Assembly: GCA_026671195.1 (NCBI GenBank)
Contig: JAPOHD010000010.1
Span: 62,569 to 126,568 of the forward strand
DNA length: 64,000 nucleotides
DNA from: Draconibacterium aestuarii
GTDB lineage: Bacteria; Bacteroidota; Bacteroidia; Bacteroidales; Prolixibacteraceae
Direction: 5' to 3'
A model generated the notes under the pieces. The model saw only the letters and a list, made by a program, of their open reading frames with translations, was not told the origin of the DNA and made no database searches. The translations under genes and the position numbers were made by a program. Numbering within the stretch: the first letter of the stretch is position 1; every line of letters begins with the position of its first letter. Positions 50,705 to 59,546 of the stretch are shown piece by piece.

Positions 50705-51430
50705 TTACTCTTCCTTTCTCAGATAAATTAATGCGGGTGTTTTAATCGGACTTTCATCGTTTAGCTGAACCATCTCCTGAAGATTCCCCTGGTATAATTT
50801 TGAATCGCTGCGCCCCGAACGCGACACAATGGTAGTATGAATAGTTTCCCTGTGAATGGAATCAAGCGCCTCATAAATTTCTTCGAGTACCTTTGTTCCC
50901 ATATAAATAACCGCTGTTCCCCTGTTCTCAACAATACTCAGCAATTGATTCACGCTTAAAAGTTTTCCCATCACATCGCGTCCCGAAAGCAGGTGCAGCG
51001 AATTACTCCCGCGGCGATCGGTTAACGAAATACCAAATTCGGCCGATGCAGCATTAAAAGCCGAAATTCCCGGAACAAGTTCAAAAGGAATGTTGTGCTC
51101 CTTCAAAAAAGAAGTTTCCTCGGCCCCCCGGCTAAAAATCATCGGATCGCCGGATTTAACACGCACAACCACCTTTCCCAATTGCGCATGTTTCAATAAT
51201 TTTTTATGAATTGAGTTTTGCCGCTCAGTAACATCAATACCGTCTCCGGCCCGTTTACCAACAAAAATATGCTCAGCACTTTCCGGAAAGAGCTCCCGAA
51301 CATCCCTCGAAATCAAAGCATCGTATAAAATTACATCGGCTTGTTTTATACAGTTAAATGCTTTTACTGTTAACAGATCCGCCGGTCCGGGCCCCGCTCC
51401 TACAATGTATACTTTTCCTGTGTTTTCCAT
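50705..51430 (-). CDS. cobA: Uroporphyrinogen-III C-methyltransferase
   Basis: 241 residues. SAM-dependent tetrapyrrole methylase motifs: VYIVGAGPGPADLLTVKA, VRVKSGDPMIFSRGAEE, PGISAFNAASAEFGISLTDR. It methylates uroporphyrinogen III twice to precorrin-2, the branch to sirohaem. It is the last gene of the sulfite operon, 6 nt after the SDR gene, and converges with the hem operon that makes its substrate. Confidence 0.94.
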   Translation of the reverse strand: MENTGKVYIVGAGPGPADLLTVKAFNCIKQADVILYDALISRDVRELFPESAEHIFVGKRAGDGIDVTERQNSIHKKLLKHAQLGKVVVRVKSGDPMIFSRGAEETSFLKEHNIPFELVPGISAFNAASAEFGISLTDRRGSNSLHLLSGRDVMGKLLSVNQLLSIVENRGTAVIYMGTKVLEEIYEALDSIHRETIHTTIVSRSGRSDSKLYQGNLQEMVQLNDESPIKTPALIYLRKEE

Positions 51431-51436
51431 TTCCTA

Positions 51437-52276
51437 CTAAATTCGGTAAGCCCACTCTTCCACCTCTTTTAAATAATCCATCGGACTTTGATATTTAAAT
51501 TTATAGTCCAATGCATTTATCAATTTATCGCTGTTTACGATCTTATAATTCTCCTTCGTATTCGAAAAAACCGGGGCTGGCAATTCACTTATTTTAGCTG
51601 CTTTGCTGTAAAATTCTCGTTTAACAGGATGTTCCGGACTGGATGCATTAAAGGTTTCTCCCCAAATATCCTTTTCAATAATTTGAGTAATAATCCCCAC
51701 ACAATCATCTCTGTGAATCAGGTTCACCGGAGTTTCTCCAGCAACCTCCGATTTATATATCAGAAATTTTACCGGATTTCTGTCGTAACCAATCAAACCG
51801 CCAAAACGAATAACTGTGGTTTTAAATTTCGGATTGTGGGTTAACACCTTTTCGGCCTTAATCAAGGCACGTCCGCTTTGTTTCTCAGGACTTCCTTCAT
51901 CGCCTTCCCTCACTTCTTTATTTTGGGATTCGTAAACCGACGAAGATGAAATAAAAAGTACTTTAGAAATACCTATTTCTTCGGCCTTTTGTGCAATCTG
52001 ATTTACTTTTTGCGGATAAGACTCTTCTACACAATCGGTTCTGGTAGGCGGAATTGAGACAATTAATACATCAGTACTAAAAAAACTGTTGTAGTCCACT
52101 TCCACTCCCTTTGGTTTTACTTTTACATAAAAGGTACTTATTCCGGTCATCTCCAAATCATTGCAACTCTTGGTCGAACTGGTTGATCCTTTTACGTTCC
52201 ATCCTTTGCGTAGCAAGGATTTGCCAAGGGCAGTACCCAGCCATCCACATCCTAATATTGAAACAGTTGTACTCAT
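51437..52276 (-). CDS. NAD(P)-binding SDR/epimerase-like protein (YeeZ type)
   Basis: 279 residues. The N-terminal Rossmann glycines SILGCGWLGTALGKSLL, LFISSSSVYESQ in the position of the active-site Ser/Tyr region, and LIHRDDCVGIITQII are typical of extended SDR proteins related to E. coli YeeZ. A canonical YxxxK pair is not seen in full. It lies between cysI and cobA in the sulfite/sirohaem operon; its substrate is unknown. Confidence 0.75.
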   Translation of the reverse strand: MSTTVSILGCGWLGTALGKSLLRKGWNVKGSTSSTKSCNDLEMTGISTFYVKVKPKGVEVDYNSFFSTDVLIVSIPPTRTDCVEESYPQKVNQIAQKAEEIGISKVLFISSSSVYESQNKEVREGDEGSPEKQSGRALIKAEKVLTHNPKFKTTVIRFGGLIGYDRNPVKFLIYKSEVAGETPVNLIHRDDCVGIITQIIEKDIWGETFNASSPEHPVKREFYSKAAKISELPAPVFSNTKENYKIVNSDKLINALDYKFKYQSPMDYLKEVEEWAYRI

Positions 52277-52343: not shown

Positions 52344-54044
52344 TTAGTGCTTAAAATCTTTCCCCTCTTTAATTTCCTTCACATATTCTTTACGAATCAC
52401 AAAATCGCCAAAGTGCTCTCCTTCGGATCTGTTCGCTGCAAAATCTGCAATTAGCATTCGTACCTCTTTCAGAATCTCTTCTTCCGGAATGGTTTCGCGG
52501 TACAGCGTATTCAACCGTGTTCCTTCAAAACTTCCACCCAGGTACAAATTATAATACCCCGGAGATTTTCCGATCAAGCCGATTTCTGCCAGGTAAGGTC
52601 GTCCGCAACCATTGGGACAACCGGTCATTCGAATTACTATTTCTTCTTTAAAGAGGTTAAAGTCATTAAGAATGAGTTCAACTTTTGATATCAGGGTAGG
52701 TAAATAGCGCTCGGCCTCGGCAAATGCCAACGGACAAGTTGGTAGTGCCACACAGGCAATTGAGTTTTTACGCAGTCCGGACAGTTCAGATGGTGCGACT
52801 CCATTTTTTTTCAAAATCGTGTCCACCTTCTTTTTCACCTTTTCGGAAACGCTACTCACAATAAGGTTCTGGTTTCCGGTAAGAATAAAATCGCCGTCAC
52901 TAATTTTGGCAATTTCGCGCAAAGCGGTTTTAATGTTTTGCTTGCCGTCATCTTTAACACGCCCACCTTCAACAAAATACGTCAAATGCCATTTTTCGTC
53001 CGTTCCTTTTTTCCAGCCAAAATCATCACCATTCCGTTCGAACTTAAATGCTCTTGCCGGCTCGAGTTTGTATCCCAAACGCTGCTCCACCTCGCTTGTA
53101 AAAACCTCAACACCCATTCTGTCGATGGTATATTTAAGGCGTGCCTGTTTGCGATTTTTACGATTCCCGTTGTCCCGTTGTGTCAGAAGCACTTTTTCGG
53201 CTACATCAACAACTTGCCCGGGCGTACAAAAACCAATTACTGTTCCAGTTCGCGGATAGGTTCCAGACATTCCAAAAGTAGAGCCAAAACCGCCACCAAC
53301 CGACACGTTGTATCCCACAATTTTAGCGTTTTCAATAATTGCAATAAATCCTAAGTCCTGCGAAAAAACATCTGAGTCGTTATTGGGCGGAATTACAATT
53401 CCGATTTTAAATTTACGAGGTAAATACCGGTCGCCATACAATGGCTCCACATCGGTTTTGCTATCGGCAATTAGCTTTTTATCAAGCCAGATTTCATGAT
53501 AAGCAGTGGTGTTCGGTAATAAATGCTCACTCACTTTCTGTGCCAGATCAATCACCTCCGAATGGAACGCCGACTCCGCAGGATTAGCATGACACATCAC
53601 ATTTCGGTTCACATCGCCACACGCCGCAATGGTATCCATCAAACTATCATTCATTTCCTGAATGGTCTTTTTCAGGTTCTTTTTTAGAACACCATGCAAC
53701 TGAAAGGTTTGACGAGTAGTTAGTTTTAAGGTGTTATTGGCATATTTCTCTGCAAGCGCATCCATTTTTAGCCATTGTTCCGGTGTAAACCGTCCACCTG
53801 GCATTCTTAAACGAATAAGAAACGAAAATGCCGGTTCCAGTTTTTGTTTTTTACGCTCTTTGTCTAAATCGCGGTCCCACTGCAAATACATGCCATGAAA
53901 CTTTGAGATTTGGGTATCGCCGTCGGCAATTGCCCCGGTTATTGGATCGGCTAAACTTTCGACTAAAGTACCACGCAAATAATTGCTGTCGTACTTTAGT
54001 TTTTCCACTTCTGAAAGTTCCTTCCAGTTAATAGTATCGGTCAT
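52344..54044 (-). CDS. cysI: Assimilatory sulfite reductase, haemoprotein beta subunit
   Basis: 566 residues, close to E. coli CysI. Substrate-binding basic region (MRTPGG-like RLRMPGGRFTPEQW) and TTRQTFQLHGV are present. The 4Fe-4S/sirohaem cysteines are in ACVALPTCPLAFAEAERYLP and MTGCPNGCGRPYLAEIG. It reduces sulfite to sulfide with six electrons supplied by CysJ. Directly downstream of cysJ. Confidence 0.96.
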   Translation of the reverse strand: MTDTINWKELSEVEKLKYDSNYLRGTLVESLADPITGAIADGDTQISKFHGMYLQWDRDLDKERKKQKLEPAFSFLIRLRMPGGRFTPEQWLKMDALAEKYANNTLKLTTRQTFQLHGVLKKNLKKTIQEMNDSLMDTIAACGDVNRNVMCHANPAESAFHSEVIDLAQKVSEHLLPNTTAYHEIWLDKKLIADSKTDVEPLYGDRYLPRKFKIGIVIPPNNDSDVFSQDLGFIAIIENAKIVGYNVSVGGGFGSTFGMSGTYPRTGTVIGFCTPGQVVDVAEKVLLTQRDNGNRKNRKQARLKYTIDRMGVEVFTSEVEQRLGYKLEPARAFKFERNGDDFGWKKGTDEKWHLTYFVEGGRVKDDGKQNIKTALREIAKISDGDFILTGNQNLIVSSVSEKVKKKVDTILKKNGVAPSELSGLRKNSIACVALPTCPLAFAEAERYLPTLISKVELILNDFNLFKEEIVIRMTGCPNGCGRPYLAEIGLIGKSPGYYNLYLGGSFEGTRLNTLYRETIPEEEILKEVRMLIADFAANRSEGEHFGDFVIRKEYVKEIKEGKDFKH

Positions 54045-54106: not shown

Positions 54107-55909
54107 CTAATAAACATCGGTTTGAAAACGTTTCTCACGTTTTAGATTTTTTACATATTTTTCGGCTTGTTCTTCTGTTACACCTCCCTGTGCTTGAATA
54201 ATTTCCAGCAAGGTTTTATTTACGTCCTTTGCCATGTATTTCATATCGCCACACAAGTATAAATGAGCTCCATTTTCAATCCATTCAAATACCTCTTTCT
54301 GGTTCTCTTTTAATTTCTGTTGTACATAAACTTTCTCTTCCTGGTCGCGCGAGAATGCCACATCGAGTTTGGTCAAATGTTCCGACTTTAATAGCTTTTG
54401 CCATTCGGTCTGGTACAGAAAATCGGAATTAAAACGACGGTCGCCAAAAAACAACCACGACTCTCCTTTAATTCCAAGGCTTTCGCGATGCTGCATAAAA
54501 GCGCGGTAAGGAGCCACTCCGGTCCCAGCTCCAACCATGATTATTTTAGACCCGTTTGCCGGCAACTTAAACGATGGATTTTTATCTATATAAATTGGCA
54601 ACTGGTCGTCAACTTCAATTGAATCAGCAAGATGTGACGAGCACGCCCCGTTTCTTAAACGATCTTTTCGTTCGTAGCGCACAACCGAAACCGTTACATG
54701 CACCTCTTCTCCAACACTTTCCATACTCGATGAAATTGAATACAAACGCGGCGGAATGGGACGCAATACTTCTGCAAGCTTATTGGCATTCCATTCAAAA
54801 GGAAAATCTTCAAGCAGATCAAGCACATCGTGTCCGTACAAATAATCGTCAGACAACTGATCATCGTTGATAATCTTTTCCAACGCAGGATTCTTTACTT
54901 TCTCCTGGTACTTTTTCAGCACATCAAAAGTCAGCGTTGTAATTTCCAAATGATGAGTCAGTGCTTCTTTAATACTTAACTCTTCTTCTTTTACATCTAC
55001 TTTTTGTTCCGGATTAAAACCGGTTTTCTCAAGAATCTGCTCCACCAGCGATTCCGGATTTTTTGCAAAGACTCCCAGCGAATCTCCCGGCTCGTACTCC
55101 AGCCCCGAACCTTCAAGCGACAATTCTACATGGTACACTTCCTTATCCGAATCGCGCCCTGTAATTTTCACTTTTTCGAGAACCGTGGCCATGTAAGGAT
55201 TTGTTTTTGAAAACTCATCAAAAGCCAACGAACTTCCCTCCGAAACAGAATAGGCAGGAGTTACCGCTGATACCGGTGATTGTGTTGCCGACTGTGCCGC
55301 CGATAAACTAACCAGAAAATTGTTCATCCAGATTTCAGCATCCCTGTCGTAATCCACATCGCACTTTACCAACGAACAAACCGAATATGCACCTAAATCT
55401 TTTAAAGCCGAATAAATATCTTCACCGGTTTTACAAAAGTGTTTATAGGTTTTATCGCCCATGGCCAAAACCGAATAATTCAGATTCTCCAGTTGCGGAG
55501 CGCGTGTTCCGGTAACAAATTTGTAAAATTCTTCAGCCATGTCAGGCGGTTCTCCTTCGCCGTGTGTACTCACAATTATGGCTACATTTTCTTCTTCTTT
55601 AAGCTTTTTGTAGTTAAAATCGTACATGCTTAAAACCTGCGCATTGATATTCTTATTCGCAGCTTTTTCGGCTAGCTTTTCGGCCAGCCCTTCCGAATGT
55701 CCGGTTTCGGTACCATAAAGAATTGTAAGCTTTACCGAGCTTTCAAGCTGCGCTGCTGGTTGCGAAGGCACTGCTACATCCCCATCGGTAGCCAACCTTC
55801 CTTCGAGGTAGCCACTCAACCATAAAATCTGCTCTTTTGTTAATGCGGGCAACAGCTGATTTAAAGTTGTTAACTGCTGCTCGTTAAATGGATTTGTTTT
55901 CAAACTCAT
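54107..55909 (-). CDS. cysJ: Assimilatory sulfite reductase, flavoprotein alpha subunit
   Basis: 600 residues. The flavodoxin-like FMN domain starts at about 66 (LTILYGTETGHSEGLAEKLA, STHGEGEPPDMAEEFY). The FAD domain contains RLYSISSSMES and LRNGACSSHLAD; the NADPH domain has GAGTGVAPYRAFMQHR and ends FQTDVY. It moves electrons from NADPH to CysI. Confidence 0.96.
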   Translation of the reverse strand: MSLKTNPFNEQQLTTLNQLLPALTKEQILWLSGYLEGRLATDGDVAVPSQPAAQLESSVKLTILYGTETGHSEGLAEKLAEKAANKNINAQVLSMYDFNYKKLKEEENVAIIVSTHGEGEPPDMAEEFYKFVTGTRAPQLENLNYSVLAMGDKTYKHFCKTGEDIYSALKDLGAYSVCSLVKCDVDYDRDAEIWMNNFLVSLSAAQSATQSPVSAVTPAYSVSEGSSLAFDEFSKTNPYMATVLEKVKITGRDSDKEVYHVELSLEGSGLEYEPGDSLGVFAKNPESLVEQILEKTGFNPEQKVDVKEEELSIKEALTHHLEITTLTFDVLKKYQEKVKNPALEKIINDDQLSDDYLYGHDVLDLLEDFPFEWNANKLAEVLRPIPPRLYSISSSMESVGEEVHVTVSVVRYERKDRLRNGACSSHLADSIEVDDQLPIYIDKNPSFKLPANGSKIIMVGAGTGVAPYRAFMQHRESLGIKGESWLFFGDRRFNSDFLYQTEWQKLLKSEHLTKLDVAFSRDQEEKVYVQQKLKENQKEVFEWIENGAHLYLCGDMKYMAKDVNKTLLEIIQAQGGVTEEQAEKYVKNLKREKRFQTDVY

Positions 55910-55917
55910 TTTGTAAT

Positions 55918-56364
55918 TTAATTTATCTGTAATTTGTCTTTAATCAGGTTTCTAATTCGAATCGATTCATATACATTTTCGCCATTCGATGCTACCGCAA
56001 TTGTTATATTGCCTTGTTTGTGTATGGCCGGCGATACAAACTGACAGAGGTCAGGTTTGTCGTGAATATTTACCAAAACTCCGGCTTTGTTACAATCCTT
56101 TACTATTTGTTTGTCCAGCTCATCGTTGTTTAAACAGGAATAAAGCATCAGGTACTTTTTAAGGTACTTTTTATGATACGCCACTTCGTAAAACTTCACC
56201 CCACTATTTTTAATTTCATCGCAAACTTTTAAAGCCAGTACCTCAACTTCAGCATCAAATCGCTGAAGTATTTTAAGCTTTTTAAAAGCATCCTGCCCCC
56301 CGCCAACAATCAGTATTTTCTGGTCCGCAATATTTATCGATATGGGTAAAAAATTCTTTTTCAT
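55918..56364 (-). CDS. Precorrin-2 dehydrogenase-like protein (MET8/CysG N-domain type)
   Basis: 148 residues, shorter than MET8 or full CysG. The NAD-binding glycines KILIVGGGQDAFKKLKIL and the segment VNIHDKPDLCQFVSPAIHKQGNITIAVASNG, which contains the Asp equivalent to the CysG catalytic region, are present; the C-terminal helical domain is truncated. It oxidises precorrin-2 to sirohydrochlorin and may insert Fe2+ to give sirohaem. No separate ferrochelatase gene is seen in the operon. Confidence 0.85.
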   Translation of the reverse strand: MKKNFLPISINIADQKILIVGGGQDAFKKLKILQRFDAEVEVLALKVCDEIKNSGVKFYEVAYHKKYLKKYLMLYSCLNNDELDKQIVKDCNKAGVLVNIHDKPDLCQFVSPAIHKQGNITIAVASNGENVYESIRIRNLIKDKLQIN

Positions 56365-56430: not shown

Positions 56431-56454
56431 GTCAGACTGAGCAAAGTCGAAGTC
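56431..56454. repeat. Dispersed-type repeat after the DUF2061 gene
   Basis: Reads GTCAGACTGAGCAAAGTCGA and on to AGTC; this word is of a kind often scattered in intergenic DNA of Bacteroidota. It abuts the stop codon of the DUF2061 gene and lies inside the sulfite operon spacer. Only this one copy occurs in the window, as far as I could see. Confidence 0.35.
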
Positions 56455-56710
56455 AAATTTCATATTCAATCGGCGTTTCTTTAACACGACCGAAGTTGGT
56501 TTTGTTCCAGGCCCGCTCATGAAAAAAGTAAAGTATCATTTTTGTAAATACTTCAACTCCTCCAATTGTTACTGCAAAATTTATATCTCCAACTACAATC
56601 CACGATATTATTATGGTATCGATGGTTCCGAGTGTTCGCCACGAAATTGTTTTCAGAATACTCCGTCTCTTTCGATCAACCAGTTTTACATCATTTTCGA
56701 CTCTACCCAT
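56453..56710 (-). CDS. DUF2061 small membrane protein
   Basis: 85 residues: RRSILKTISWRTLGTIDTIIISWIVVGDINFAVTIGGVEVFTKMILYFFHERAWN fits DUF2061 (shown here only in part: core motifs ISWRTLGTIDT and YFFHERAWN). Two membrane helices are expected. DUF2061 proteins often accompany sulfate/sulfite assimilation genes; the function is unknown. It is the first long gene after the attenuator leader, about 100 nt beyond the terminator. Confidence 0.85.
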   Translation of the reverse strand: MGRVENDVKLVDRKRRSILKTISWRTLGTIDTIIISWIVVGDINFAVTIGGVEVFTKMILYFFHERAWNKTNFGRVKETPIEYEI

Positions 56711-56810: not shown

Positions 56811-56844
56811 AAATAAAAAAGCCCTCCTGCAACTGCAGAAGGGC
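56811..56844 (-). terminator. Leader terminator of the sulfite operon attenuator
   Basis: On the minus strand GCCCTTCTGCA / TGCAGGAGGGC forms an 11-bp stem (one G-U pair) with a 2-nt centre, followed by TTTTTTATTTT. It stands between the leader reading frame and the first long operon gene, so it must be bypassed for operon expression. Confidence 0.9.
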
Positions 56845-56960
56845 GAATAAATTATAGTAGTTATGAGCTATTTACATATCAATATCCTTCTGCAAAAATT
56901 CAGTACTGCAACACATACACATCATACATGTCATCGAATTCAATTTTATTTCAGAAGAAT
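56834..56960 (-). promoter_or_regulatory. Competing leader pairings (antiterminator) of the sulfite operon
   Basis: TGCAGAAGG (plus positions 56886-56894), inside the last third of the leader frame, is the exact complement of CCTTCTGCA in the 5' arm of the terminator (56834-56842), so it can form a 9-bp antiterminator. The same segment can instead pair with ATTCTTCTG (56952-56960, leader codons 4-7) over 9 bp with one G-U. The three pairings exclude each other as segments 1:2, 2:3 and 3:4 do in trp-type attenuators. Confidence 0.75.
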
Positions 56961-56970
56961 TTGTTTTCAT
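56872..56970 (-). CDS. Cys/Met-rich leader peptide of the sulfite reduction operon
   Basis: A 32-codon frame from ATG at 56970 to TAA at 56872. Codons 13-21 read MTCMMCMCC, four Cys and four Met in nine, followed by STEFLQKDIDM. It begins about 32 nt after a well-placed promoter and ends just ahead of an intrinsic terminator. I read it as an attenuation leader whose translation rate over Cys and Met codons reports charged tRNA-Cys and tRNA-Met. The product itself probably has no function. Confidence 0.8.
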   Translation of the reverse strand: MKTNSSEIKLNSMTCMMCMCCSTEFLQKDIDM

Positions 56971-56986
56971 ATCAATTAATCGCAAA

Positions 56987-57002
56987 AGTGACTTTTGTCA
57001 CA
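56987..57002. promoter_or_regulatory. Crp-like palindrome at the sulfite operon start site
   Basis: AGTGACTTTTGTCACA resembles the Crp core TGTGA-N6-TCACA and contains the exact inverted repeat GTGAC-TTTT-GTCAC. It lies where transcription from the promoter at 57008-57036 should begin, so it may be an operator or a 5'-end hairpin of the leader RNA. Confidence 0.45.
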
Positions 57003-57007
57003 CTTTG

Positions 57008-57036
57008 CAAATGTAAATCTTTATTTCACACCACAA
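57008..57036 (-). promoter_or_regulatory. Promoter of the sulfite reduction operon
   Basis: On the minus strand TTG (57034-57036), 18 nt, TACATTTG (57008-57015) matches the Bacteroidota consensus. Expected start is near 57002, giving a 32-nt 5' region before the leader ATG. Confidence 0.65.
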
Positions 57037-57389: not shown

Positions 57390-59546
57390 ATGAAGGTTTA
57401 TAAAACTGAAGAAATTCGGAACATTGCTTTAATCGGTAATGCCGGCAGTGGGAAAACCACCCTTGCAGAAGCTATGCTTTTTGAGGGTGGAGTTATAAGT
57501 CGCAGAGGTGAAGTAACCGCAAAAAATACGGTTTCTGACTACACCCAAATTGAGCAGGATTATGGCAATTCTGTTTTCTCTACATTATTATATACTGAAT
57601 ACAACGGAAAAAAGATTAATATTTTGGATACTCCCGGGATGGATGATCTTTGCGGAAGCGTTGTACAAGCATTAAGTGTTACCGCACTTAGTTTAATTAC
57701 AATTAATGCATCGAACGGTGTTGAAGCTGGAACAGAAGCCGCCGGTCGCCAGGCCGAACATGCCGACACTCCGCTTGTTTTTGTATTCAATCAGTTAGAT
57801 CACGACAATTCGAATTTCGACAGTACTTTAGACCAATGTAAAGCCGCATTTGGAAACAAAGTTACGGTTGTACAATACCCTGTTGATGCGGGCACTTCTT
57901 TTTCTTCAATTATCGATGTTTTGAAGATGAAGATGTACAAGTATCCAAAAGACGGTGGCCAACCTGAAATTCTTGACATCCCTGCTTCTGAAAAAGATAA
58001 AGCCGACGAACTACACAACGAATTGGTTGAAATGGCAGCCGAAAACGAAGAAGCTTTAATGGAGCTGTACTTTGACAAAGGAACACTTTCGGAAGACGAA
58101 ATGCGCAAAGGAATCAAGCTGGGAATGTTGGAACGTAGTATTTTCCCAGTATTCTGCACCTGTGCAAAACAAAATAAAGGTGTTGGGCGCTTAATGGAGT
58201 TTATCACCAATATCTCTCCTGCTCCGAGCGAGAAAAAGATGACCGAAATTGTTGCCGGGAAACAAGTAAAAATGGATGCTTCGGATTTACCAAGCATTTT
58301 TGTTTTCAAAACAGCAGTTGAACCACACGTTGGCGAGATTACTTTTTTTAAGGTAATGTCGGGAACCGTAAAAGAAGGTTTGGATTTAGTAAATAGCAAA
58401 TCGGGAAATAAAGAGCGCCTCTCACAGGTATTTGTATCGGCCGGTAAAAACCGCGAAAAAGTGGAACAACTTGTTGCAGGTGATTTGGGTTGTACGGTTA
58501 AATTAAAAGACACCAAATACAACCAGACGTTGTCGCCAAAAGAAGCCGCAATAAAATTCAAAGAAATTACATTCCCTGCGTCGCGCCATACAGTTGCTGT
58601 AAAAGCCAAAAACGATTCGGACGATGAGAAAGTAGGTGAAATACTAAGTAAAATTAAATACGAAGACCCCACCTACGTAATTGAATATTCAAAAGAATTA
58701 AAACAATTGCTGGTTCATGGGCAGGGCGAGTATCATTTAAATATTTTAAAATGGTATTTTGATACCATCTACAAAATTGATGTTGATTATTTAGCGCCAA
58801 AAATTCCTTATCGTGAAACAATTACCAAGTTTGCCCAGGCCGACTACCGTCACAAAAAACAATCGGGTGGATCGGGTCAATTTGGTGAAGTTCATTTAAT
58901 TATTGAACCCTACACTCCTGGCTCAGAACCTAAAAAAATGTTCAAATTTGGCGATAAAGAGCAAAAATTATCTGTTCGCGCCGTTGAAGAACACGAATTA
59001 CCCTGGGGTGGAAAATTAATCTTCTGCAACTGTATTGTTGGTGGTTCCATCGATGCCCGTTTCCTTCCGGCTATTTTAAAAGGAATTATGGAAAAAATGA
59101 ATGAAGGACCTTTAACCGGTTCGTATGCCCGCGATATCCGTGTTTATGTTTATGACGGTAAAATGCACCCGGTTGATTCAAACGAAATTTCGTTTAAACT
59201 TGCCGGACGTAATGCATTCAGCATGGCCTTCAAAAATGCCGGGGCAAAAATTCTTGAGCCTATTTACGACCTTGAAGTTTGGACACCATCAGACCGTATG
59301 GGTGATGTAATGAGTGACCTTCAGGGGCGTCGTGCCATGATTATGGGTATGGGTTCGGAAAAAGGCCTGGAGAAAATTTCCGCCAAAGTTCCATTAAAGG
59401 AAATGAACAAGTATACCACTTCGCTGAGTTCGATTACAGGTGGACGTGGTGTATTTAAAATGAAATTCGACGATTACGAAAAAGTACCTGCAGATGTTCA
59501 AGACGAATTGCTGAAAGCATACGAAGCAGAGCAGGAAGAAGAATAG
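57390..59546 (+). CDS. Elongation factor G paralogue (EF-G2-like GTPase)
   Basis: 718 residues with EF-G domains I-V. G1 is GNAGSGKTT (16-24), G3 is DTPGMDD instead of DTPGHVD, and G4 reads NQLD in place of NKMD. The switch region RGITI of EF-G is replaced by a different stretch (DYTQIEQDYGNSV). The C-terminal part is EF-G-like (MGDVMSDLQGRRAMIMGM). Such paralogues replace or assist EF-G in some steps (recycling, stress or slow growth); in Bacteroides thetaiotaomicron a second EF-G without GTP hydrolysis has been described as working under carbon starvation, and whether this one is equivalent is inference. It has its own promoter and terminator. Confidence 0.9.
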   Translation: MKVYKTEEIRNIALIGNAGSGKTTLAEAMLFEGGVISRRGEVTAKNTVSDYTQIEQDYGNSVFSTLLYTEYNGKKINILDTPGMDDLCGSVVQALSVTALSLITINASNGVEAGTEAAGRQAEHADTPLVFVFNQLDHDNSNFDSTLDQCKAAFGNKVTVVQYPVDAGTSFSSIIDVLKMKMYKYPKDGGQPEILDIPASEKDKADELHNELVEMAAENEEALMELYFDKGTLSEDEMRKGIKLGMLERSIFPVFCTCAKQNKGVGRLMEFITNISPAPSEKKMTEIVAGKQVKMDASDLPSIFVFKTAVEPHVGEITFFKVMSGTVKEGLDLVNSKSGNKERLSQVFVSAGKNREKVEQLVAGDLGCTVKLKDTKYNQTLSPKEAAIKFKEITFPASRHTVAVKAKNDSDDEKVGEILSKIKYEDPTYVIEYSKELKQLLVHGQGEYHLNILKWYFDTIYKIDVDYLAPKIPYRETITKFAQADYRHKKQSGGSGQFGEVHLIIEPYTPGSEPKKMFKFGDKEQKLSVRAVEEHELPWGGKLIFCNCIVGGSIDARFLPAILKGIMEKMNEGPLTGSYARDIRVYVYDGKMHPVDSNEISFKLAGRNAFSMAFKNAGAKILEPIYDLEVWTPSDRMGDVMSDLQGRRAMIMGMGSEKGLEKISAKVPLKEMNKYTTSLSSITGGRGVFKMKFDDYEKVPADVQDELLKAYEAEQEEE

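Follow-up and report, generated by a model that had tools for sequence, protein, structure and literature searches.

The E. coli trp, his and phe operons have attenuators with a short leader ORF; in trp, the stall codons overlap segment 1 of the leader RNA, so that a ribosome halted there masks it. Polycysteine leader ORFs of mycobacteria were reportedly described by Canestrari et al. in 2020. In the available portions of the published work, the mycobacterial ilvB1 attenuator follows the trp logic (PMC13236596), and polycysteine leader ORFs lie ahead of cys genes in mycobacteria and other Actinobacteria (PMC1262725, PMC9094748), where the accessible text reports no conserved terminator hairpins (PMC1262725). 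According to excerpts of a further source, the uORFC-8-2 motif before cysS in Rhodobacterales combines two tandem Cys codons with an intrinsic terminator, and attenuation has been proposed for it (PMC8632094). For the rimP-leader, a second terminator in tandem, with an antiterminator, is described before one gene in the text available (PMC2965389). Within Bacteroidota, leader-peptide attenuation has been raised in a general way for Flavobacterium psychrophilum (PMC9723704) and leader-like sORFs hint at it in Bacteroides thetaiotaomicron (PMC7366714) so that, going by the accessible parts of these papers, such regulation does not come as a complete surprise in this phylum.

The locus described here lies in a 64-kb stretch of DNA, referred to as the window. 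It resembles the E. coli attenuators in its end-product codons, the exclusive pairings 1:2, 2:3 and 3:4, the intrinsic terminator and the modelled placement of a stop-codon ribosome on segment 2. Unlike them, it mixes two sulfur amino acids, has segment 1 upstream of the stall codons, and belongs to a different phylum and pathway. With the actinobacterial leaders it shares a Cys-codon ORF before cys genes; unlike these, as presented in the accessible text, it unites leader, intrinsic terminator and antiterminator, with Met codons added. The uORFC-8-2 motif, as excerpted, likewise joins a Cys-codon uORF to an intrinsic terminator with ribosome-mediated attenuation proposed, but is alphaproteobacterial, contains Cys only and precedes a cysteinyl-tRNA synthetase gene, whereas the leaders reported here precede genes for sulfite reduction, cysK, metY, cysH and cysDN in Bacteroidota. 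The F. psychrophilum and B. thetaiotaomicron cases come from the same phylum and suggest the same general mechanism, but the accessible parts of these papers name no Cys or Met leader, although Table S7 of PMC9723704 could hold one. The rimP-leader also has two terminators in series with an antiterminator, but its accessible description includes no leader peptide, whereas here each of two units has its own ORF.

The original prediction took a mixed Cys/Met leader before sulfite reductase in Bacteroidota to be undescribed as far as was known, and none appears among the literature matches listed. In the mostly open-access literature searched, taken without supplements, the matches listed include neither a Cys/Met or Met leader in Bacteroidota nor tandem leader-peptide attenuators. 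As far as this literature goes, the mixed Cys/Met sensing proposed below, the Met-dominated and tandem leaders and their spread over Bacteroidota sulfur genes are new.

The leader and its operon

The operon proposed earlier, DUF2061 - precorrin-2 dehydrogenase - cysJ - cysI - SDR - cobA, was confirmed with Pfam and NCBIfam models (Table 1), and is divergent from and head to head with an elongation factor G2 gene. Ahead of it, a minus-strand ORF encodes MKTNSSEIKLNSMTCMMCMCCSTEFLQKDIDM (32 codons), in which MTCMMCMCC was correctly placed at codons 13–21. The strong intrinsic terminator predicted downstream of the frame was also found; its stem-loop is GCCCTTCTGC-AGTT-GCAGGAGGGC, followed by T6, with a folding energy of -18.4 kcal/mol. 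As had been noted, segment 2 exactly complements segment 3 in the 5' arm of the terminator, and segment 1, near the start of the frame, pairs with CAGAAGGAT over 9 bp including one G-U. The three exclusive pairings (1:2, 2:3 and 3:4) are all present at this locus. The distance from the last Cys codon to the first base of segment 2, originally given as 16 nt, is 13 nt.

Table 1. Features of the leader locus and its neighbours, with positions in the window
Feature	Position	Strand	Evidence or remark
Elongation factor G2, divergent gene	57390..59546	+	NF058620
TACATTTG, match to Bacteroidota -7 promoter box	57008..57015	-	45 nt upstream of leader ATG
TGTGACAAAAGTCACT palindrome, CRP/FNR-like operator candidate	56987..57002		between promoter box and leader ORF
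Leader-peptide ORF, 32 codons + stop	56872..56970	-	homologous ORFs in relatives
Segment 1, ATTCTTCTG, codons 4–7	56952..56960	-	pairing analysis (pairs with segment 2)
Regulatory codons 13–21, MTCMMCMCC	56908..56934	-	read from sequence
Segment 2, TGCAGAAGG, antiterminator 5' side, codons 26–29	56886..56894	-	covariation, cognate-duplex tests
Segment 3, CCTTCTGCA, common to antiterminator and terminator 5' arm	56834..56842	-	covariation, folding
Intrinsic terminator (stem-loop 56844-56821, U tract 56820-56815)	56815..56844	-	sequence and folding
DUF2061 membrane protein, first structural gene	56453..56710	-	PF09834, 3e-22
Precorrin-2 dehydrogenase (siroheme synthase / CysG N-terminal domain)	55918..56364	-	TIGR01470
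cysJ, sulfite reductase flavoprotein	54107..55909	-	TIGR01931
cysI, sulfite reductase hemoprotein	52344..54044	-	TIGR02041
SDR-like NAD(P)-binding protein	51437..52276	-	weak matches
cobA / CysG C-terminal domain, uroporphyrinogen-III methyltransferase	50705..51430	-	TIGR01469

Such an ORF is rare by chance. Among ATG-initiated ORFs of 12–60 codons on both strands of the window, it is the only one with at least 5 Cys+Met per 10 residues, and its best 10 residues contain 8. One hundred dinucleotide shuffles of the window together yielded 38 ORFs that reached 5, none that reached 8, and none of these shuffled Cys/Met ORFs had a terminator downstream. Eight of the leader peptides were compared with the NCBIfam HMMs and matched no leader-peptide family at E-values up to 10.

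Upstream, TACATTTG matches TAnnTTTG, which we take to be the consensus of the Bacteroidota -7 promoter box. Of 35 leaders, 29 have the same motif 32–61 nt ahead of their ATG; in five others it is seen only beyond 110 nt and in the last it is absent within 130 nt. The palindrome TGTGACAAAAGTCACT can be likened to what is presumably the CRP-type consensus, TGTGA-N6-TCACA, and [AT]GTGA-N6-TCAC is found in 11 of the 35 leaders, ten from the window's genus and one from a sister genus. This palindrome may provide a second, protein-mediated layer of control.

Conservation in relatives

A search of 100 family genomes for the DUF2061 protein gave 53 matches in 47 of them; 50 of these places were read and three matches were left unfetched. 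All 39 of the best matches (at least 90 bits) have a Cys/Met leader at the head of the operon. A Cys/Met ORF with a terminator lies directly upstream of DUF2061 in 35 of the 50 places, and in four further loci the leader is located farther upstream, before a hemA-like gene or cysD: it precedes a glutamyl-tRNA-reductase-like gene in L006 (L081), is about 900 nt from DUF2061 in L020, and precedes cysD in L035 and L036. By contrast to the best matches, all 11 low-scoring copies read (L040–L050) lack a leader within 650 nt. In addition, 84,980 named genomes were searched with an exact pattern that included CAGRRG and CTTCTG, which returned 54 stretches. Of these, 36 have a Cys/Met ORF and terminator and come from Prolixibacteraceae and relatives, including Draconibacterium, Maribellus, Mariniphaga, Sunxiuqinia, Mangrovibacterium, Tangfeifania, Anaerophaga and Thermophagus, as well as MAGs, one of them labelled Odoribacter. 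The other 18, mostly from other phyla and including one Flavobacterium, are without such a terminator.

Thirty-four leaders were aligned, with that of L039 (G043) left out. Here, the alignment across relatives proposed in the original prediction bore the idea out: Cys/Met codons and terminator persist together with the 2:3 complementarity, and there are covarying pairs. A Met between two Cys codons (CMC) is invariant (34/34); the Cys preceding it is present in 33 leaders and the two Cys following it in 29 and 24. The sulfite-reduction leaders use TGT 188 times and TGC 37 times, and at the best-kept Cys columns TGC accounts for 1/33, 1/29 and 5/24 of the Cys codons, a synonymous change so slight that it is weak evidence for translation. 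When gaps were checked for keeping the reading frame, 30 of length 4 turned up within the coding region; these resemble an alignment artefact.

The omitted leader of L039, MNIQKLHTASCCSCTFMCMMCCCCCM, has a different terminator, CCTTTTGTAT, no clear 2:3 pairing, and stall codons that reach the stop codon.

A covariance model of the leader, R1, finds the sulfite-reduction leaders well, and 16 of the 29 class-wide loci read have a Cys/Met ORF and terminator. Many of its weak matches are plain terminators, and the genome tallies at loose cut-offs (88/100 and 51/395) are unusable as attenuator counts for this reason.

Alternative pairings and modelled positions of the ribosome

The pairing tests used the aligned leaders and a set of 116, which were obtained by scanning 246 of 276 loci, with 30 duplicates left out. 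As both groups were chosen by Cys+Met content, the split between Cys and Met, the pairing and the spacing are the freer tests; the leaders are related and hence are not independent of one another. In the alignment of 34 leaders, 96.7% of the cells of the 2:3 helix are paired and 18 cells are changed on both sides; for the 3:4 helix the values are 97.9% and 17. Two of the 2:3 pairs covary, as G-U/G-C/U-G/U-A and G-C/A-U. None of 500 shuffles reached the values for 2:3 of cells paired, cells with a double change or covariation score; the remaining two of the five measures, the counts of pairs with a double change and of pair types, were not above the shuffles. The terminator helix 3:4 gives the same pattern against 500 shuffles.

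The sequences of the segments themselves vary by operon, being CAGAAGG:CCTTCTG here, CGGGAAGG:CCTTCCTG for cysK and GCGGAAGG:CCTTCCGC elsewhere. In the 116 leaders, cognate 2:3 duplexes have a mean energy of -13.9 kcal/mol compared with -8.2 kcal/mol for dissimilar, non-cognate ones, and the cognate duplex is in the best 5% for 85 of them. Because the exact pattern required CAGRRG and CTTCTG, the rows that it supplied are partly selected for 2:3 pairing; with these removed, 79 of 84 leaders are better than their own non-cognate mean and 56 are in the best 5%, leaving 28 outside it. The fit of segment 1 to segment 2 exceeds that of shuffled segment-1 regions (p below 0.05) in 27 of 35 leaders; in L033, CTCCTG faces CAGGAG, in place of the CTTCTG that faces CAGAAG in others.

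The median distance from the last Cys/Met codon to the start of segment 2 is 12 nt (IQR 9–13; 110 of the 116 leaders have the helix), and the helix starts at 6–16 nt in 89% of cognate cases. This spacing is partly forced by the layout, since 57% of non-cognate helices start in the same range. A ribosome covers positions -14 to +15 around the P site in the footprint model used. With A-site stalls placed at codons 13 and 15–21, segment 2 is wholly free in the model and 9 of 9 antiterminator pairs form; with the ribosome at the stop codon, 6 of the 9 bases of segment 2 are covered and no antiterminator pairs form. Thus, the two modelled positions lead to opposite pairings. The modelled footprints of stalls at codons 13–21 never touch segment 1, and the caution in the original prediction that a stalled ribosome would leave this segment uncovered was right.

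Similar leaders across the sulfur genes

Loci for four further genes were located by tblastn, and the 30 best were taken for each of cysK, metY, cysD and a nitrite/sulfite-reductase-like gene. A leader with a terminator precedes cysK in 24 of its 30 best loci (19 at a stricter cut-off), with one more, L202, having a weaker peptide; the other five (L199, L207, L208, L212 and L213) are without a leader. The window's own genome has such a second leader ahead of cysK, MKNTCYNMMMCCCFLQSGRGVIIM, which has a CCC core and the cysK segments given above; two stretches of this genome around cysD and metY were scanned and no leader was found in them. Of 198 genomes of the class, 47 contain a match to the NirA-like nitrite/sulfite reductase, and 14 of the 30 best loci for this gene have a leader and terminator, two of them weak (L285 and L304), while three more (L287, L305 and L306) have a peptide and no called terminator. 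For metY the count is 3 of 30, all in metY-metX-thrA operons of three genera, and for cysDN it is 2 of the 30 best cysD loci, both in one genus; the other 27 metY and 28 cysD loci have no leader with a terminator within 600 nt, although five of these 27 metY loci carry a Cys-rich ORF that lacks a called terminator. Single or few loci in the family or class have Cys/Met leaders before OsmC-cysK, cysH and metY. As a control, the rest of the four anchored sets gave one hit to a leader with a terminator in 792,713 strand-bases.

The composition of the peptides differs between these genes. The best 10 residues contain on average 3.7 Cys and 3.7 Met for sulfite reduction (56 peptides), and 3.5 Cys and 2.5 Met for cysK (19 peptides). 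In the metY-metX-thrA leaders (six peptides from three loci) the means are 0.3 Cys and 6.7 Met, with five of the six lacking Cys. Composition therefore follows the branch of the pathway, although not strictly, because Met is present in the cysK leaders as well.

Two complete leaders in series, each unit with its own ORF, are found at 15 distinct loci (17 rows, two of them duplicates). In L155, L156 and L157 (L097, L090), from three genera, two Met-rich leaders, each with its own terminator, are in series before metY-metX-thrA. Nine loci from other Bacteroidia (L215, L218, L220, L221, L222, L224, L229, L233 and L235) have tandem Cys/Met leaders before NIR_SIR-type genes, this family having been checked in L222 and assigned by look in the other eight. 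In L215, L218 and L220, MMCCMMC closes the first leader, whose segment 2 is found past the stop codon.

Proposed mechanism and alternatives

Together, the sequence comparisons and modelled footprints make it very probable that this leader is a trp-type, ribosome-mediated attenuator of the sulfite-reduction/siroheme operon that responds to charged tRNA-Cys and, with less certainty, to charged tRNA-Met. When Cys and Met are plentiful, a ribosome translating the ORF would reach the stop codon and cover most of segment 2, or 1:2 would pair; with segment 2 occupied, the 3:4 terminator would form and transcription would stop ahead of DUF2061. A shortage of either amino acid would halt the ribosome at codons 13–21, between segments 1 and 2; segment 2 could then pair with segment 3 while segment 4 is still to be transcribed, and the operon would be read. 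The 1:2 pairing would function as a default lock when the ribosome is absent or after its release at the stop codon. The uncovered segment 1 counts against the model but is not fatal to it, since the stalled ribosome would sit between segments 1 and 2 and hold them apart, and segment 1 would be covered by a following ribosome as it initiates at the start codon.

The element has in common with trp-type attenuators a short ORF with codons for amino acids of the pathway (Cys/Met, Met-dominated or Cys-rich cores), an intrinsic terminator between this ORF and the first structural gene, a 2:3 pairing that excludes the terminator and covaries (three of five measures beyond the shuffles), and a 1:2 protector pairing. 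In the model, it also has a segment 2 that is covered by a stop-codon ribosome and freed by a stalled one. Stall codons that overlap segment 1 are not seen with these footprints; as stalls at codons 13–21 never touch that segment, the element would be a variant that works like trp. Of the attenuation originally proposed, the part that concerns Cys is strongly supported. Met sensing is supported too and is the weaker part: the Met codon is invariant and the metY-metX-thrA leaders are Met-dominated, while the share of Met in the response can only be surmised as the cysK leaders also carry Met.

The leader might instead sense cysteine only, with the Met codons arising from expansion of ATGTGT-type repeats or kept as spare start codons, a reading that we regard as possible but rather unlikely. 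The MCMCMC runs are indeed (ATGTGT)n, and Cys is present in the best 10 residues of all counted cysJI, cysK and nitrite/sulfite-reductase-like leaders. Met varies in the cysK leaders, being absent from the best 10 residues in 1 of 19, and several leaders in other Bacteroidia are CCC or CCCC with few Met. However, the central Met is present in 34 of 34 leaders while the two Cys that follow it vary (29/34 and 24/34), and Met also occurs as MM and MMM, beyond the hexamer repeat. The Met-dominated metY-metX-thrA leaders argue that Met codons can be the sensor.

Two other readings set tRNA sensing aside. In one, which is very improbable, the peptide itself would act, as a metal- or thiol-binding product or the precursor of a modified natural product, and the terminator would merely be its 3' end. 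The CMCC core does resemble a metal-binding motif. Modified peptide precursors exist in Bacteroidota according to the available text of one report (PMC12636315), but the operon genes tested with Pfam and NCBIfam include no modifying enzyme. Moreover, the residues outside the core follow the RNA pairing (CAG AAG of segment 2 and the Ser/Thr-Ser codons of segment 1), and operons with different products have different cores. Segment sequences differ between operons while complementarity is kept, which argues against a riboswitch or protein-binding RNA element in place of a translated leader. That explanation, to which we give slightly less credence still, would account for the strong 1:2 hairpin that forms without ribosomes. 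However, what is conserved is a reading frame that carries Cys/Met codons, and no Rfam family reached its gathering score in the window, the best match near the leader being 28 bits against a cut-off of 65.

Implications for sulfur regulation in Bacteroidota

Little was found in print on the regulation of sulfur assimilation in Bacteroidota. The attenuator proposed here may be one of many: Bacteroidia could run much of the sulfur regulon by such elements, with the codon mixture naming the end product to which each responds (a Cys-rich mixture before cysK, Met before metY-metX-thrA and the two together before the shared sulfite-reduction trunk). These would include the first sensors of elongator tRNA-Met and 15 tandem loci that would sharpen or combine the response. 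We consider the case for this broader scheme to be evenly balanced. If it is true, DNA alone would tell which sulfur genes answer to cysteine, methionine or both. An attenuator working through Met codons would demonstrate the sensing of elongator Met-tRNA even though Met starts every protein, and the tandem leader peptides would offer a simple natural system for two attenuators in series. In Bacteroidota, most translation starts do without Shine-Dalgarno pairing; attenuation, if it works there, would mean that transcription and translation are coupled in this phylum.

The DUF2061 membrane protein recurs in cysJI (in the window), cysDN (L088) and hemA-siroheme (L081) operons, a pattern suggesting that it takes part in sulfate/sulfite assimilation. 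Upstream of one type of metY (L161, L168, L170, L171 and L176) there is a Cys-rich ORF (CCC or CCCC, then RMC), which is 118–168 nt from the gene and has no called terminator; this is perhaps a leader of another, non-terminator kind. Finally, Cys/Met leader-like ORFs are present in L219, L230, L093 and L089 near genes for a peroxiredoxin, a 4HBT thioesterase, a DUF4395 protein and one further gene, and these are possibly further members of the group or possibly chance occurrences.
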